DNA of 64,000 bases from Streptomyces sp. NBC_00271 (GTDB taxonomy: Bacteria > Actinomycetota > Actinomycetes > Streptomycetales > Streptomycetaceae): contig NZ_CP108070.1 in assembly GCF_036178845.1 (NCBI RefSeq), positions 3,410,001-3,474,000 of the forward strand. The letters are read 5' to 3'. The position numbers and the translations under genes were made by a program. Positions within the stretch are counted from its first letter, which is position 1. Each line of letters begins with the position of its first letter. Shown here piece by piece: positions 1,807 to 6,637 of the stretch. A model generated the notes under the pieces. It was not told the DNA's origin. It was given only the letters and a program-made list of their open reading frames with translations, and ran no database searches.

Positions 1807-2631
1807 ATGGCCGATGCCCCCACCGGCAAGGTGACCATCGTCGGGGCAGGGCCCGGCGCCGCCGACCTGCTGACGTTCCGCGCCGCGCGCGCCATCGCCG
1901 AGGCCGACGTCGTGATCTGGGCAGCCAGCCTCGTGCAGGCCGAGGTCCTCGAGCACGCGCGCGAGGGAGCGGAGATCCTGGACTCGGCGACGATGTCCCT
2001 GGAGGACGTCGTGGCCGTGTACGAGCGGGCGGCGGCCGACGGGCTGAAGGTGGCCCGCATCCACTCCGGCGACCCGGCCCTGTGGGGCGGTACGCAGGAG
2101 CAGCTGGACCGGTGTGCGGACATCGGCGTCGAGACCGAGATCATTCCCGGCGTCTCCTCCTTCTCCGCCGTGGCCGCGCTCGCCCAGCGCGAGCTGACGA
2201 TCCCCGAGGTCGCGCAGTCCGTGATCCTCACCCGGCTCGGCGGCGGCAAGACGCCCATGCCGCCCGGCGAGGAGGTGCGGGAGTTCGCGCGGCACGGCAC
2301 GACCATGGCGCTGTTCCTGTCGGCCGCCCGCAGCGGACAGCTCGTACGGGAACTGCTGGAGGGCGGCTATCCGACGTCCACGCCGGTCGTGGTCGCCTAC
2401 CAGGCGACCTGGCCGGAGGAGCTGATCGTGAAGTGCACGATCGAGACGCTGGAGGAGACCGTCAAGGAGCACAAGCTCTGGAAGCACACCCTCTTCCTGG
2501 TCGGCCCCGCCCTCGACGCGAGCGGCACCCGCTCGCACCTCTACCACCCCGGTCACTTCCACGGCTTCCGCAAGGCCGATCCGCAGGCGCGCGCGGAGCT
2601 GCGCGCGGCCCGCAAGGGCAGTCCTTCGTGA
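1807..2631 (+). CDS. cobM: Precorrin-4 C11-methyltransferase
   Basis: A 274-residue SAM-dependent methyltransferase of the CobM/CbiF family, adding the C11 methyl group. VTIVGAGPGAADLLT at the N-terminus is the SAM-binding glycine loop; HSGDPALWGG, IIPGVSSFSA and PTSTPVVVAYQATWPEE are strongly conserved CobM/CbiF blocks. A good ribosome site (GGAGAGGA) lies upstream of the ATG. The stop overlaps the GTG of cobL (GTGA), indicating coupled translation. The 120 bases between this start and the divergent ZIP gene should hold the promoters of both. Length and motifs are typical; identification is firm. Confidence 0.95.
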   Translation: MADAPTGKVTIVGAGPGAADLLTFRAARAIAEADVVIWAASLVQAEVLEHAREGAEILDSATMSLEDVVAVYERAAADGLKVARIHSGDPALWGGTQEQLDRCADIGVETEIIPGVSSFSAVAALAQRELTIPEVAQSVILTRLGGGKTPMPPGEEVREFARHGTTMALFLSAARSGQLVRELLEGGYPTSTPVVVAYQATWPEELIVKCTIETLEETVKEHKLWKHTLFLVGPALDASGTRSHLYHPGHFHGFRKADPQARAELRAARKGSPS

Positions 2632-3878
2632 TCACCGTCTTCGGTACGGGGACGGGGGCACCGCTGTCCACGGACGCCTCGGACGCGCTGGCCGAGGCCG
2701 GGCTCGTCGTGGGCGCCCGCCGCCATCTGGCGTCCGCGCGGCTGCCGGACGCGGTGGAGCGGATCGTCCTCGGGCCGCTCGCGCCCGCCCTCGACGCGAT
2801 CGAGGGATGCCTGGAGAAGGAGCGGCGCGTCGTCGTGCTCGCCTCCGGTGACCCCGGGTTCTTCGGGATCGTGCGGGCGCTGGCCGAGCGGTTCGGGGCC
2901 GAGCGGCTGGACGTGCGCCCCGGTGTCTCGTCCGTCGCGACCGCCTTCGCGCGGCTCGGGCTGCCCTGGGACGACGCGGTGGTGGTGAGCGCCCACGGGC
3001 GCGCGCTGCGCACGGCCGTCCAGGTCTGCCGCTCCCACCCGAAGGTGGCGGTGCTGACCGGCCCCGGCTCCGGGCCCGCCGAACTGGGCGCCGCCCTCGC
3101 CCACCACTGCGCCGGGCGCGTCCTCGTCGTGGCGAGCGCCCTCGGCGACCCCGCACACGAGCGTGTCGAGCGGGTCACCCCGGCACAGGCCGCGGGCCGC
3201 GACTGGGGTACGGCGGTGAGTGTGGTCCTGTGCCTCGACGAGTCGCGGGCCCTCGCCCCCGTGCGGACGGTCGCCGGTCCCCCGGCCGGACCCGACCGGT
3301 GGGCCCTGGACGAGCGCGAGTTCGCCCACCGCGACTCGATGATCAGCAAGTTCGAGGTGCGGGCGCTGGCGCTGGCCCGGCTCGGGCCGCGCCTGGGCGA
3401 GCTGGTCTGGGACGTCGGCGCGGGCTCCGGATCCGTCGCCGTCGAGTGCGCGCGGTTCGGGGCCGCCGTCACCGCGATCGAGAAGACACGGGACGGCTGC
3501 GACCGGATCCTCGCCAACGCCGAGGCGCACGGCGTCGACGTCCGGGTGGTGCACGGGGCCGCGCCGACCGTGCTGTCCGACCTGGACGATCCGGACGCCG
3601 TGTTCATCGGCGGCGGGGGGCGCGAGCTGCCCGCCATCGTGACCGTCTGCGCACGGCGGGCCCGGCGGGCCGTCGTCGTCGCCATGGCCGCGCTCGACCG
3701 GGTGCCGGCGGCCCGGGAGGCGCTCACCGCCGCCGGGTTCGACTGCGACGGCGTACTGCTGCAGTCTTCCCGGCTCACGCCGCTGCCGGGGAACGTCACC
3801 CGGCTCGCGGCCACCAACCCCGTTTTTTTGCTGTGGGGCGTCCGGCCTCCGGCACGTACCGAAGGAGTCCTCCATTGA
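2628..3878 (+). CDS. cobL: Precorrin-6Y C5,15-methyltransferase (decarboxylating), CbiE-CbiT fusion
   Basis: A 416-residue two-domain enzyme. Residues 1 to about 215 form the CbiE-like tetrapyrrole methylase (GTGTGAPLS, ASGDPGFFGI, RPGVSSVATAFARLG). The C-terminal half, after DEREFAHRDSMISK, is the CbiT-like methyltransferase/decarboxylase with the SAM motif VWDVGAGSGSVAVE and FIGGGGRELP. It methylates C5 and C15 and decarboxylates the ring-C acetate. GTG 2628 was chosen because it overlaps the cobM stop. The same frame continues open upstream, but that part is a shadow of cobM. The stop TGA lies in the sequence ATTGAA, where the first structured repeat begins. Confidence 0.94.
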   Translation: MITVFGTGTGAPLSTDASDALAEAGLVVGARRHLASARLPDAVERIVLGPLAPALDAIEGCLEKERRVVVLASGDPGFFGIVRALAERFGAERLDVRPGVSSVATAFARLGLPWDDAVVVSAHGRALRTAVQVCRSHPKVAVLTGPGSGPAELGAALAHHCAGRVLVVASALGDPAHERVERVTPAQAAGRDWGTAVSVVLCLDESRALAPVRTVAGPPAGPDRWALDEREFAHRDSMISKFEVRALALARLGPRLGELVWDVGAGSGSVAVECARFGAAVTAIEKTRDGCDRILANAEAHGVDVRVVHGAAPTVLSDLDDPDAVFIGGGGRELPAIVTVCARRARRAVVVAMAALDRVPAAREALTAAGFDCDGVLLQSSRLTPLPGNVTRLAATNPVFLLWGVRPPARTEGVLH

Positions 3879-4073
3879 ATCCTCGCCTCCGCGAACGGAG
3901 GTGATTCCTGGCTCACGCTGCCTCTCGGACCGGCGGTCCGTCAGGTCTTCCACGATCAACACCAGCCGGGTTGAAACCAGCCCGGGCAGCTCACCTGCTG
4001 CAAGGTCACACAACTTCAAGGAGACTCCGCGTGCTTGGCTCTCGCGACGCATCGTCTGCGATTCACGCTACCA
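3875..4073 (+). repeat. Structured repeat, copy 1, upstream of cbiG-cobJ
   Basis: Begins at TTGAA, whose TGA is the cobL stop, and is clearly homologous to 5865-6040. Shared blocks include GATTCCTGGCTCACGCTGC, GATCAACACCAGCCGGGTTG and ACGCTACCA. Between them lie hairpins whose stems differ between copies but still pair: CCTCCGCGAACGGAGG here and a CTC/GAG stem around the same GCGAAC loop in copy 2, then GGACCGGCGGTCC here and an unrelated pairing CTCGGTCG/CGATCGAG there. Such covariation suggests a structured RNA or the hairpin ends of a mobile element. No protein is encoded. An IS200/IS605-like non-autonomous element or a cis-regulatory leader are both possible. Confidence 0.65.
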
Positions 4074-4176
4074 GCACGCCGGTCCGCCCTGGGGGCGAAC
4101 CGGCTTTTCCTGCCCTGATGCGCAGGTGTTCGATTCCTCCCCGGCCTGAAGGCCGGGACGTCCTCGGAGGGATCCA
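4074..4176 (+). promoter_or_regulatory. Hairpin-rich leader of cbiG-cobJ, extension of repeat copy 1
   Basis: This part has no counterpart in copy 2. It contains a stem-loop at about 4079-4102 (CCGGT, CGCCC paired with GGGCG, ACCGG) followed by CTTTTCC, which looks terminator-like. A near-perfect palindrome follows, CCCGGCCTGAAGGCCGGG (4140-4157). The segment ends with GGAGGG, five bases before the GTG of cbiG-cobJ, so the element supplies that gene's ribosome site. CCGGCCTGAAGGCCGG resembles the terminal hairpins of IS200/IS605-type elements as I remember them; this was not tested. Confidence 0.5.
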
Positions 4177-5868
4177 GTGATCGGCCTGATTTCCGCCACG
4201 GCGGCGGGCGCGGCGGCCCGTGACCGGCTGGCCGCGGCCTGGCCCACCCGTACGCGGGTGTACGACGGGTCCGTCGGGGACGCCGTGCGGCGGGCCTTCG
4301 CGGAGTGCGACCAGTTGGTGTGCTTCCTCGCCACGGGCGCTGTGGTGCGGCTGATCGCGCCGCTGCTGGGCGACAAGACGTCCGACCCGGGGGTCGTGTG
4401 CGTGGACGAGGGCGGCCGGTTCGCCGTGTCGCTCGTCGGCGGTCACGGCGGCGGCGCCAATGAACTCGCCCGCGAGGTGGGCGAGTTGCTCGGGGCCGAG
4501 CCGGTGGTGACGACGGCGACGGACACGGTCGGAGTGCCGGGACTCGACACGCTCGGCTTCCCCGTGGAGGGGGAGGTCGCCGCGGTCACCCGGGCGCTGC
4601 TGGACGGCGAACCCGTCGCCCTGCGGGCCGACTTGGCGTGGCCGCTGCCACCTCTGCCCGTCGCGACGGAGGGCGCGTACGGCATTCGGGTCACCGACCG
4701 GGCCGTGACGCCCGGCGAGCGCGAGGTGCTGCTGCGTCCGCCCTCCCTCGTGGTGGGGGTCGGCGCGTCCAAGGGCGCTCCGGTGGCCGAGATCCTCGGC
4801 CTCGTCGAGGACGTACTCCGTGACGCCGGGCTGTCCGCGAAGTCCGTCGCGGAGCTGGCCACCGTCGACGCCAAGGCCGAGGAGCCCGGCATCGTCGAGG
4901 CCGCCGGACGGCTCGGGGTGCCCGTGGTGACGTACACCGCCGAGGAGTTGGCGGCGGTGGACGTGCCGAACCCCTCGGACGCACCGCTCACCGCCGTCGG
5001 CACCCCGTCCGTGGCGGAGGCCGCCGCCCTCGTACGCGGCGGTGAACTCCTCGTACCCAAGCGGAAGTCGACGCGTGCGGACGGGCGGCCCGCGATGGCC
5101 ACCTGTGCCGTCGTGCGCCGCGTGGCGCGCGGGCGGCTCGCGGTGGTCGGGCTCGGACCCGGCGCCCGTGACCTGCTCACCCCGCGGGCGAAGGAGGAGC
5201 TGCGGCGGGCGTCCGTGCTCGTCGGGCTCGACCAGTACGTGGACCAGATCCGCGATCTGCTGCGCCCCGGCACCCGGATCCTGGAGTCCGGGCTCGGCGC
5301 CGAGGAGGAGCGGGCGCGCACGGCGGTCGCCGAGGCACGGCGCGGGCAGGCCGTCGCGCTGATCGGCAGCGGGGACGCGGGCGTGTACGCGATGGCGTCA
5401 CCGGCGCTGGCCGAGGCGTCCGACGACATCGACGTGGTGGGGGTGCCGGGCGTGACCGCCGCGCTCGCGGCCGGGGCGATCCTGGGCGCGCCGCTGGGCC
5501 ACGACCACGTGTCGATCAGCCTCTCCGACCTGCACACACCGTGGGAGGTCATCGAGCGCCGGGTGCGGGCCGCCGCGGAGGCGGACATCGTCGTGACCTT
5601 CTACAACCCGCGCAGCCGGGGCCGCGACTGGCAGCTCCCGAAGGCGCTCGCGATCCTCGCCGAGCACCGGGAACCGACGACGCCGGTCGGGGTCGTCCGC
5701 AACGCCTCCCGGCCGGACGAGTCGAGCCGGGTGACGTCGCTGGGGTCCCTGGATCCGGCGATCGTCGACATGATGACCGTCGTGACCGTGGGCAACACGG
5801 CGACGCGTGAGATCGCCGGGCGCATGGTGACACCGCGCGGCTACCGCTGGCAGGAGGAGCCCAATTGA
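4177..5868 (+). CDS. cobJ: CbiG-CobJ fusion: cobalt-precorrin-5A hydrolase / precorrin-3B C17-methyltransferase
   Basis: A 563-residue fusion. Residues 1 to about 310 are CbiG-like, with VCFLATGAVVRLIAPLL and SLVGGHGGGANELA. Residues from about 316 to the end are the CobJ/CbiH methylase, beginning VVGLGPGARDLLTPRA and carrying IGSGDAGVYAMASP, GVPGVTAALAAGA and VTFYNPRSRGRDW. CobJ methylates C17 with ring contraction; CbiG opens the delta-lactone in the cobalt-early route. The start is GTG 4177 after GGAGGG. The stop TGA is again part of ATTGAA at the head of the second structured repeat. A CbiG domain points to at least partly cobalt-early chemistry. Confidence 0.94.
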   Translation: MIGLISATAAGAAARDRLAAAWPTRTRVYDGSVGDAVRRAFAECDQLVCFLATGAVVRLIAPLLGDKTSDPGVVCVDEGGRFAVSLVGGHGGGANELAREVGELLGAEPVVTTATDTVGVPGLDTLGFPVEGEVAAVTRALLDGEPVALRADLAWPLPPLPVATEGAYGIRVTDRAVTPGEREVLLRPPSLVVGVGASKGAPVAEILGLVEDVLRDAGLSAKSVAELATVDAKAEEPGIVEAAGRLGVPVVTYTAEELAAVDVPNPSDAPLTAVGTPSVAEAAALVRGGELLVPKRKSTRADGRPAMATCAVVRRVARGRLAVVGLGPGARDLLTPRAKEELRRASVLVGLDQYVDQIRDLLRPGTRILESGLGAEEERARTAVAEARRGQAVALIGSGDAGVYAMASPALAEASDDIDVVGVPGVTAALAAGAILGAPLGHDHVSISLSDLHTPWEVIERRVRAAAEADIVVTFYNPRSRGRDWQLPKALAILAEHREPTTPVGVVRNASRPDESSRVTSLGSLDPAIVDMMTVVTVGNTATREIAGRMVTPRGYRWQEEPN

Positions 5869-6040
5869 ACCCTCCTCCTCGCGAACGAGAAGGATTCCTG
5901 GCTCACGCTGCTCGGTCGCTCAGCGAACGATCGAGTCTTCCGCGATCAACACCAGCCGGGTTGGAACCAGCCCGGTTTCCCCAAGGATTGGAGGCTGCTG
6001 TGCTGGCTTGGTTCTCGCTCAGCACGCGGCGACGCTACCA
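5865..6040 (+). repeat. Structured repeat, copy 2, upstream of cobH
   Basis: Homologue of 3875-4073. It starts at TTGAA overlapping the stop of cobJ, keeps GGATTCCTGGCTCACGCTGC, CGATCAACACCAGCCGGG and GACGCTACCA, and replaces the variable stems with different but still complementary sequences. It is about 20 bases shorter than copy 1 and lacks the 3' extension. It ends just before the hairpin that contains the cobH ribosome site. Both copies have the same orientation as the cob genes. Confidence 0.65.
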
Positions 6041-6055
6041 CCGGGAGGCCCGGTG
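6039..6055 (+). promoter_or_regulatory. Hairpin enclosing the cobH ribosome site and start codon
   Basis: The sequence CACCGGGAGGCCCGGTG is a perfect 7-bp stem with a 3-base loop. It contains the only plausible ribosome site, GGGAGG, and the GTG start codon of cobH lies in the 3' arm. The fold would hide both from ribosomes unless opened, for example by coupled translation or by refolding with the repeat just upstream. Confidence 0.5.
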
Positions 6056-6637
6056 AACCGCGTGATTCACCCGATCGAGCAGGAGTCCTTCCGGCGGCTG
6101 CGTGCCCGTCTGGACACCTCGCATTTCCCGCCGCTGACGCGGGCGGTCGTGGAGCGGGTCATCCACTCCGCGGCCGACCTCGACTACGCGGACGACCTCG
6201 TCACCGACGAGGGCGCCCTGGCGAACGCGCACGCGGCGCTGCACGCCGGGGCGCCGGTCGTGGTGGACGTGGAGATGGTCGCGGCGGGCATCACGCGCCG
6301 CGACACCGTCTGCCGCCTCAAGGACGCCAAGTCCGGCCCGGGGCTGACCCGTTCGGCCCACGCGATCCGGCTCGCGTACGAGGAGGTCGGGCCCGGCGCG
6401 CTCTGGGTGATCGGCTGTGCGCCGACCGCCCTGGAGGAGCTGCTGACCCTCGACGCCGACCCGGCGCTCGTCATCGGTCTGCCCGTCGGCTTCGTCGGCG
6501 CTGCCGAGTCCAAGGCCGCGCTGCGCGACAGCGGGCTGCCCGCCGTCAGCAACGTGTCCGAGAAGGGCGGCTCGGCGGTCGCCGCCGCCGCGCTCAACGC
6601 ACTGCTGTACCACCCCGCAACCAAGGAGTTTTCGTGA
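6053..6637 (+). CDS. cobH: Precorrin-8X methylmutase
   Basis: A 194-residue CobH/CbiC-family enzyme that moves a methyl group from C11 to C12 to give hydrogenobyrinate. Family blocks are ERVIHSAADLDYADDL, VVVDVEMVAAGI and GLPVGFVGAAESK. GTG 6053 was chosen over an ATG at 6008: it has GGGAGG just upstream and begins VNRVIHPIEQESF as family members do, while the longer form would run into the repeat. The stop overlaps the GTG of the chelatase gene (GTGA). Slightly short but otherwise typical. Confidence 0.93.
   Translation: MNRVIHPIEQESFRRLRARLDTSHFPPLTRAVVERVIHSAADLDYADDLVTDEGALANAHAALHAGAPVVVDVEMVAAGITRRDTVCRLKDAKSGPGLTRSAHAIRLAYEEVGPGALWVIGCAPTALEELLTLDADPALVIGLPVGFVGAAESKAALRDSGLPAVSNVSEKGGSAVAAAALNALLYHPATKEFS

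Follow-up and report, generated by a model that had tools for sequence, protein, structure and literature searches.

Short tnpB-less elements of the IS200/IS605 type at stop/start overlaps of cobalamin genes in Streptomyces

Two structured segments in a cobalamin operon

In the cobalamin (cob) operon of Streptomyces sp. NBC_00271 (genome of 12.28 Mb in 3 contigs), two related non-coding segments lie in the same orientation between consecutive genes, and each starts with ATTGAA, in which TGA is the stop codon of the upstream gene (3876-3878 and 5866-5868; all positions are those of the window, i.e., the whole analyzed stretch of 64,000 nt, positions 3,410,001 to 3,474,000 of contig NZ_CP108070.1). 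The locus raises the question of what these segments are. The original prediction offered two possibilities, namely a non-autonomous IS200/IS605-like element with the target TTGAA, or a cis-regulatory RNA family of the cobalamin cluster. The analysis presented here indicates that both segments are, very probably, short derivatives of an IS200/IS605-type tnpB element that lack tnpB, resemble palindrome-associated transposable elements (PATEs), are inserted in GTGA overlaps of cob genes and would supply a guide RNA to a TnpB protein acting in trans.

Empty sites and the insertion target

We compared the locus with 80 named Streptomyces cob loci, selected as the closest by the CbiG-CobJ protein rather than as a random sample. 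Junction 1 (between the genes for CobL and the CbiG-CobJ fusion) is unreadable in 3 of the 80 and junction 2 (between the genes for CbiG-CobJ and CbiC/CobH) in 7, with L085 and L097 unreadable at both. At junction 1, 74 of the 77 readable loci have a 4-nt overlap (GTGA, in one case TTGA) and the other three (L041, L045 and L047) are each filled with a 200-bp element; at junction 2, 71 of the 73 readable loci have no insert, and the remaining two (L026 and L045) contain a 188-bp element. The nearest named cob loci are those of S. olivochromogenes DSM 40451 (L025) and Streptomyces sp. NBC_01549, each at 96% in CbiG-CobJ. In L025, the empty junction 1 reads CTCCA directly followed by GTGATCGG (in a longer context, CCGAAGGAGTCCTCCA followed by GTGATCGG), within 400-nt flanks that are 97.8% and 97.3% identical to those in the window, and the empty junction 2 reads CCCAA followed by GTGA (in a longer context, GGAGGAGCCCAA followed by GTGA).

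These empty sites give exact boundaries for copy 1, an element of 302 bp (3875..4176, minus strand), and for copy 2, an element of 188 bp (5865..6052, minus strand), for which the same empty site is present in L028 and same-site copies in L026 and L045. The original extents were correct in that each segment runs to the next gene, but their ends, 4073 and 6040, were too short; the actual ends, 4176 and 6052, directly precede the GTG of the next gene. The genes involved, all on the plus strand, encode a CobL-type precorrin methylase (2628..3878; Pfam TP_methylase, with Methyltransf_25 under its curated cut-off), the stop of which lies within the first four bases of copy 1; the CbiG-CobJ fusion between the two copies (4177..5868; Pfam CbiG_N, CbiG_C and TP_methylase), whose GTG start falls within the GTGA target; and the precorrin-8X methylmutase CbiC/CobH downstream of copy 2 (6053..6637; Pfam CbiC, 1.2e-55). 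The operon has two other GTGA stop/start overlaps (2628-2631 and 6634-6637), neither of which holds an insert.

Paired empty and filled sites were also detected outside the cob genes. L205 is filled, and L284, L286 and L289, with the same flank, are empty with a gap of 0; L191, L314, L316 and L317 are filled at another site, which is empty in L315 (gap 0). The underlying flank searches covered, on one strand, the 30 best-matching loci per site, of which 16 were readable for L205 (none filled; the gap is 0 in eight and 3-26 in the other eight), compared to 14 for L191. None of the four junctions (two cob, two non-cob) shows a target duplication, and in all of them GTGA (TCAC on the element strand) is retained at the left end; thus, insertion occurred beside a fixed short target without duplication, in the manner of IS200/IS605-type elements. 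The target is TCAC (GTGA in the host sense). TTGAA, originally proposed for this role, is instead the right end of the element itself (TTCAA on the element strand), because the empty sites at both cob and non-cob junctions place the target at the other end.

Relationship to tnpB-bearing elements

A DNA search with copy 1 produced 17 matches in its own genome, including tnpB-bearing relatives that have both ends in common with it; several left and right matches form pairs that are separated by about 1.4-1.5 kb and enclose a tnpB gene on the opposite strand. The TnpB proteins of these relatives match PF01385 and PF07282 (OrfB_IS605 and Cas12f1-like_TNB domains). The TnpB of L019 matches the TnpB structure 8bf8, which we take to be that of ISDra2 TnpB, with an E-value of 7.4e-25; its best match is the AI-designed nuclease 9yyg, with which its presumably catalytic D, E and D residues line up. 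The genome also contains ten matches to Y1_Tnp, some of them broken or mirrored.

Reading by eye on the minus strand shows that both cob copies retain the last 23 TnpB codons and the stop, i.e., RAGFNPAGVDRGRPDGPPVREAA followed by a stop in copy 1 (3913..3984), resembling the tnpB C-termini of L018-L020 in position and letters, and RAGSNPAGVDRGRLDRSLSDRAA followed by a stop in copy 2 (5903..5974), in addition to a stretch that matches zinc-finger codons. The elements are accordingly read on the minus strand, with the right end at the low coordinate, since both the TnpB remnants and the opposite-strand tnpB genes of the relatives read there. Too short for a transposase, sharing ends with tnpB-bearing copies and retaining TnpB remnants, the segments qualify as IS605-derived elements of the PATE kind, which bears out the non-autonomous element that had been suggested as one of the two alternatives.

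Subterminal palindromes are present at the right end of both copies. At the left end, copy 1 has a canonical palindrome (CCCGGCCTGAAGGCCGGG, 4140..4157), similar to one in other members of the family, and copy 2 has a different 7-bp one, read by eye as CACCGGG-AGG-CCCGGTG (6039..6055), which crosses the element end into the GTG. The latter includes target bases, so that the left end of copy 2 could pair with its own target.

To survey the family, we searched with R1, a right-end covariance model of 112 positions and 34 pairs built from a seed of eight tnpB-less copies and one tnpB-bearing copy. Among 121 genomes of the genus, R1 has matches in 50, finding tnpB-less and tnpB-bearing copies alike; the matches total 148 (sum of the per-genome column), 137 of them outside the own genome. 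Of the latter, 100 were fetched (those left out are 3 at contig edges, 3 of equal score in G097 and the 31 with the lowest scores), 38 with fewer than 60 residues of TnpB and 62 with more, and 95 distinct copies were left after removal of 5 with repeated flanks. A close tnpB (E-value 1e-100) was found in 15 of the 18 genomes with fetched tnpB-less copies (a count that leaves out L214, L229, L252 and L267) and in 36 of the 121 genomes overall; the own genome has 8 such genes, mirrored copies near both chromosome ends included.

Some features of individual tnpB-bearing members are worth recording. In the own genome, tnpB copies form identical-scoring inverted pairs at mirror positions (G000:C1, ~151-312 kb and 11.62-11.78 Mb), a pattern suggestive of long terminal inverted repeats at the chromosome ends. 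One family tnpB copy, L116 (G000:C1:213184-214332), looks broken because of an in-frame TAG; intact relatives are present. The right-end matches of the tnpB-bearing L019 and L020 are about 25 bases longer than the others (137-138 vs 112), perhaps reflecting a doubled terminal hairpin.

A conserved RNA fold at the right end

The R1 fold overlaps the 3' end of tnpB and the right end of the element (3875..3986 in copy 1, 126.4 bits, and 5865..5976 in copy 2, 132.8 bits, both on the minus strand and both seed sequences of the model), that is, the same region as the omegaRNA, or right-end element RNA (reRNA), of TnpB systems. Covariation was assessed in a set of 41 tnpB-less copies that come from 40 sources and include 7 cob or own-genome loci together with 33 short loci; of the 38 short loci, L214, L229, L252, L267 and L271 were left out. 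In this set, 95.2% of 1385 cells pair and 19 of the 34 pairs show two-sided change, with 162 such cells, in an alignment that was fitted to the R1 model and is thereby biased towards the fold; none of 500 shuffles reaches this level, and structures slid by 1-3 columns pair in at most 53.1%. The compensatory changes in stems around conserved loops that had been noticed between the two copies thus extend to significant covariation in the wider family. Folding energy alone gives a clear signal for copy 1 (z-score -3.39, reached by 0 of 100 shuffles) and a weak one for copy 2 (z-score -1.25, reached by 22 of 200 shuffles). No Rfam family matches the window at the gathering cut-off (two weak matches at the locus are far below it), which rules out a cobalamin riboswitch or another Rfam RNA.

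Because the tnpB-less copies no longer encode TnpB, a constraint on the RNA is the simplest reading of the fold that they keep. A conserved right-end RNA antisense to cob is as expected, by analogy, of a TnpB guide-RNA (omegaRNA) scaffold.

A variable-stem hairpin with the conserved loop CTTGGYTCTCG, which in full elements corresponds to TnpB zinc-finger codons, is doubled in several tnpB-less elements, including L188, L187 and L021. A scan for this loop found 51 instances in 34 of 45 tnpB-less elements, with a stem of at least 6 in 59%, compared to 11% at random positions. In copy 1, the hairpin region (4029..4050, minus strand) has the loop CTTGGCTCTCG, in which a resemblance to the zinc-finger codons is visible by eye; in copy 2 (6000..6025, minus strand), the hairpin is GTGCTG-loop-CAGCAC, with CTTGGTTCTCG in the loop.

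Stops and starts at the insertion sites

Judged against L025, the insertions change the end of the upstream gene from CAG TGA to CAT TGA at junction 1 and from AAG TGA to AAT TGA at junction 2, so that one C-terminal residue is altered and both the stop and the start are retained. The downstream genes start with GTG A in the empty sites; in the filled sites, the element leads into GGAGG-N6-GTG (copy 1; GGAGG at 4166..4170, plus strand, ahead of the GTG at 4177) or GGAGG-N4-GTG (copy 2; GGAGG at 6044..6048, plus strand, ahead of the GTG at 6053).

This placement recurs across the family. Among the 95 distinct copies, 81 begin with TTGA. By a strict count, the TGA closes an upstream frame that is both open and the best coding one in 31 of 80 callable TTGA-ended insertions (13 of 29 tnpB-less and 18 of 51 tnpB-bearing), compared to 20 of 1510 GTGA sites from the upstream flanks of the same loci (Fisher p 3.8e-30), where coding frames were called with an unvalidated codon model trained on these loci; a looser count gives 33 of 94 insertions vs 27 of 1510 sites. 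Of the 38 copies that have a left end, 11 combine an in-frame stop with a coding frame from the start, compared to 6 of 1856 sites. Of the 19 left ends detected with a pattern that takes no account of GGAGG, 9 have GGAGG or AGGAG ahead of the start (6 of 9 tnpB-less and 3 of 10 tnpB-bearing; L238 is probably a false left end among the 19), compared to 41 of 1661 background sites. Left ends that we read ourselves were kept out of this count because GGAGG had guided the reading. GGAGG is also present in 7 of 9 left ends delimited by empty sites or same-site copies, and these are not independent. With respect to the origin of the stop-site preference, we favor a pattern left by selection over aimed insertion.

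A tentative mechanism and site reuse

Based on these observations, we propose the following model. A Y1 transposase, provided in trans, would paste the element next to TCAC (host GTGA) and leave no duplicated target bases. With TTCAA on its own strand, which the host strand reads as TTGAA, the right end re-creates the TGA stop and alters only the last codon, and the left end supplies GGAGG 4-6 nt ahead of the retained GTG start, a new site that ribosomes would use; the cob operon thus keeps both reading frames, with tight coupling replaced by a spacer of 188-302 nt. We further infer that the element strand, antisense to cob, is transcribed into an omegaRNA that is loaded into TnpB, with the end of the flanking gene as the guide. 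By analogy with the ISDra2 reRNA, the predicted guide of copy 1 is the flank just beyond its right end (complement of 3855-3874, minus strand), and its target would be the empty allele. TnpB acting in trans would cut this allele (TCAC plus guide), whereby the insertion would be held or restored.

The same sites may have been used repeatedly. At junction 2, the window and L045 have elements that are inserted at the same base and share 96.8% identity, within flanks that are 88-89% identical, and the two hosts are far apart on the CbiG-CobJ tree. The window, L025 and L026 form one clade (support 1.0, internal order unresolved), in which L025 is empty at both junctions, and L044, L066 and L041, near L045 on this tree, have no insert at junction 2. 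One site is shared by different elements in L190 and L233 (71% identity over the first 180 nt) and in L220 and L239 (56%), and the tnpB-less L205 and the tnpB-bearing L211 lie between the same genes. Such reuse may be due to homing by guide RNA, to repeated transposition or to transfer of cob DNA. A co-conversion tract, considered as proof of homing, was not accepted: the first 30 nt rightward of junction 2 are identical between the window and L045, and identity is not raised leftward.

A more specific possibility, which we put forward as a speculation and rather doubt, is a lineage of mini-transposons consisting only of the guide RNA and adapted to translationally coupled junctions, with ends evolved to restore the stop and the ribosome site and an omegaRNA with which a trans-acting TnpB would re-home the element after gene transfer. 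If true, re-homing into empty junctions would account for the presence of almost the same copy at a single cob junction of distant species.

Alternative explanations

The observations leave room for three other explanations. A cis-regulatory RNA family of the cobalamin cluster, i.e., a B12 or cobalt sensor or an intercistronic regulator of translation, would account for two copies in one cob operon, for five more filled junctions at the same two places in four other genomes, and for the conservation of the RNA structure. Such a family is hard to reconcile with the absence of the insert from the great majority of readable cob loci at both junctions, with TnpB remnants on the strand antisense to cob and with the lack of an Rfam match; moreover, none of the 100 relatives fetched from elsewhere (mostly in 5.1-kb stretches) lies beside CobL, CbiG-CobJ or CbiC, the only cob genes sought. 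This half of the original prediction thus found no support, and we consider it highly improbable. A domesticated omegaRNA, kept by the host to regulate the cob operon together with TnpB or a nuclease-dead, TldR-like TnpB, would fit the near identity of the junction-2 elements in the window and L045 within more diverged flanks and the presence of TnpB genes in the own genome. It is nonetheless improbable considering that the distribution is patchy even within the three-member clade of the window, that the inspected TnpB (L019) retains the likely catalytic positions, and that the guide matches the element's own flank, where TCAC continues into the element, so that the filled locus would not present a target next to a transposon-associated motif (TAM).

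The third explanation agrees on the family and boundaries and differs on function: the segments would be decaying, functionless tnpB remnants, whose tidy placement between stops and starts results purely from purifying selection. Purging is to be expected for insertions inside genes, and for 38 of 94 insertions the adjoining sequence has no clear coding frame. This possibility is unlikely in view of the fold maintained by two-sided changes in tnpB-less copies, of the retained and sometimes doubled conserved-loop hairpin, and of the enrichment of stops even relative to non-coding GTGA sites (33 to 38 for the elements vs 27 to 390 for the background). The interpretation as PATE-like elements that provide a guide RNA to TnpB in trans has its own difficulties, and the following facts weigh against it. 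Fourteen of the 95 distinct copies do not start with TTGA, and 49 of the 80 callable TTGA-ended insertions are away from an in-frame stop. Only 3 of the 19 pattern-found copies combine an in-frame stop with a coding frame from the start, compared to 8 of 19 left ends that we read ourselves. A strong GGAGG is present in only the three of ten pattern-found tnpB-bearing left ends and is missing from the same-site-bounded junction-1 left ends of L041 and L045, and the motif may simply come with the left-end palindrome. The search for close TnpBs found nothing in 3 of the 18 genomes that have tnpB-less copies. Finally, the canonical left-end palindrome is lacking in copy 2 and its kin, and copy 2 occurs only once in its genome, so that it may no longer move.

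Comparison with known systems

As described in the accessible parts of the respective papers, PATEs are IS605-derived elements of Haloquadratum and Halanaerobium, some of which, e.g., HqIRS71, keep part of the transposase C-terminal coding region and the end, and a 271-nt element of H. hydrogeniformans holds the last 58 nt of tnpB (PMC3119063, PMC7290912). The Streptomyces elements resemble PATEs in their non-coding size, near-terminal palindromes, lack of terminal inverted repeats and of target duplication, and, for some, origin by core deletion (PMC3119063, PMC7290912). They differ in that more than one third of the TTGA-ended insertions are at in-frame host stops, several of them at 4-nt overlaps, a placement unmentioned for PATEs in those parts, and in that their ends restore the stop and often bring a Shine-Dalgarno-like motif, with the fold demonstrated by covariation. 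The TnpB-reRNA system of ISDra2, which has a homologous TnpB, similarly involves a structured RNA from the 3' end of tnpB and the right end, a flank-derived guide, and a target motif that doubles as the TAM, such that the empty donor joint consists of TAM plus guide; the cob copies have TCAC rather than TTGAT as the target and contain neither tnpB nor tnpA (PMC8612924). In the TnpB-driven insertion sequence (IS) gene drive of plasmids, the nuclease cuts the empty allele and fixes the IS, which is the purpose predicted here, whereas for the cob copies it would act in trans, on behalf of a tnpB-less element, and on the chromosome (PMC11870625). Nuclease-dead TldR regulators (PMC13418256) likewise pair a protein derived from TnpB with a guide RNA in the vicinity of host genes, but no tnpB lies inside the two cob copies.

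A PATE-like, tnpB-derived non-autonomous element is of a known kind, and the seemingly new part is the regular use of in-frame stops and overlaps, with supply of a stop and a ribosome site. A literature search, outside which most subscription journals fell, returned no report of IS605-type elements at stop/start overlaps that supply both. The cob copies show a route by which a mobile element can settle at a gene overlap within an operon and leave both frames intact, in that one of its ends carries a stop and the other a ribosome-site motif. Natural tnpB-less elements resembling guide RNAs, with paired empty and filled sites in relatives, make TnpB service in trans and homing testable in Streptomyces. 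They also carry a warning, namely that structured inserts of 190-300 nt between Streptomyces genes can pass for regulatory RNAs. At one further locus, L185, the insert lies upstream of a sequence that resembles a thiamine pyrophosphate (TPP) riboswitch.

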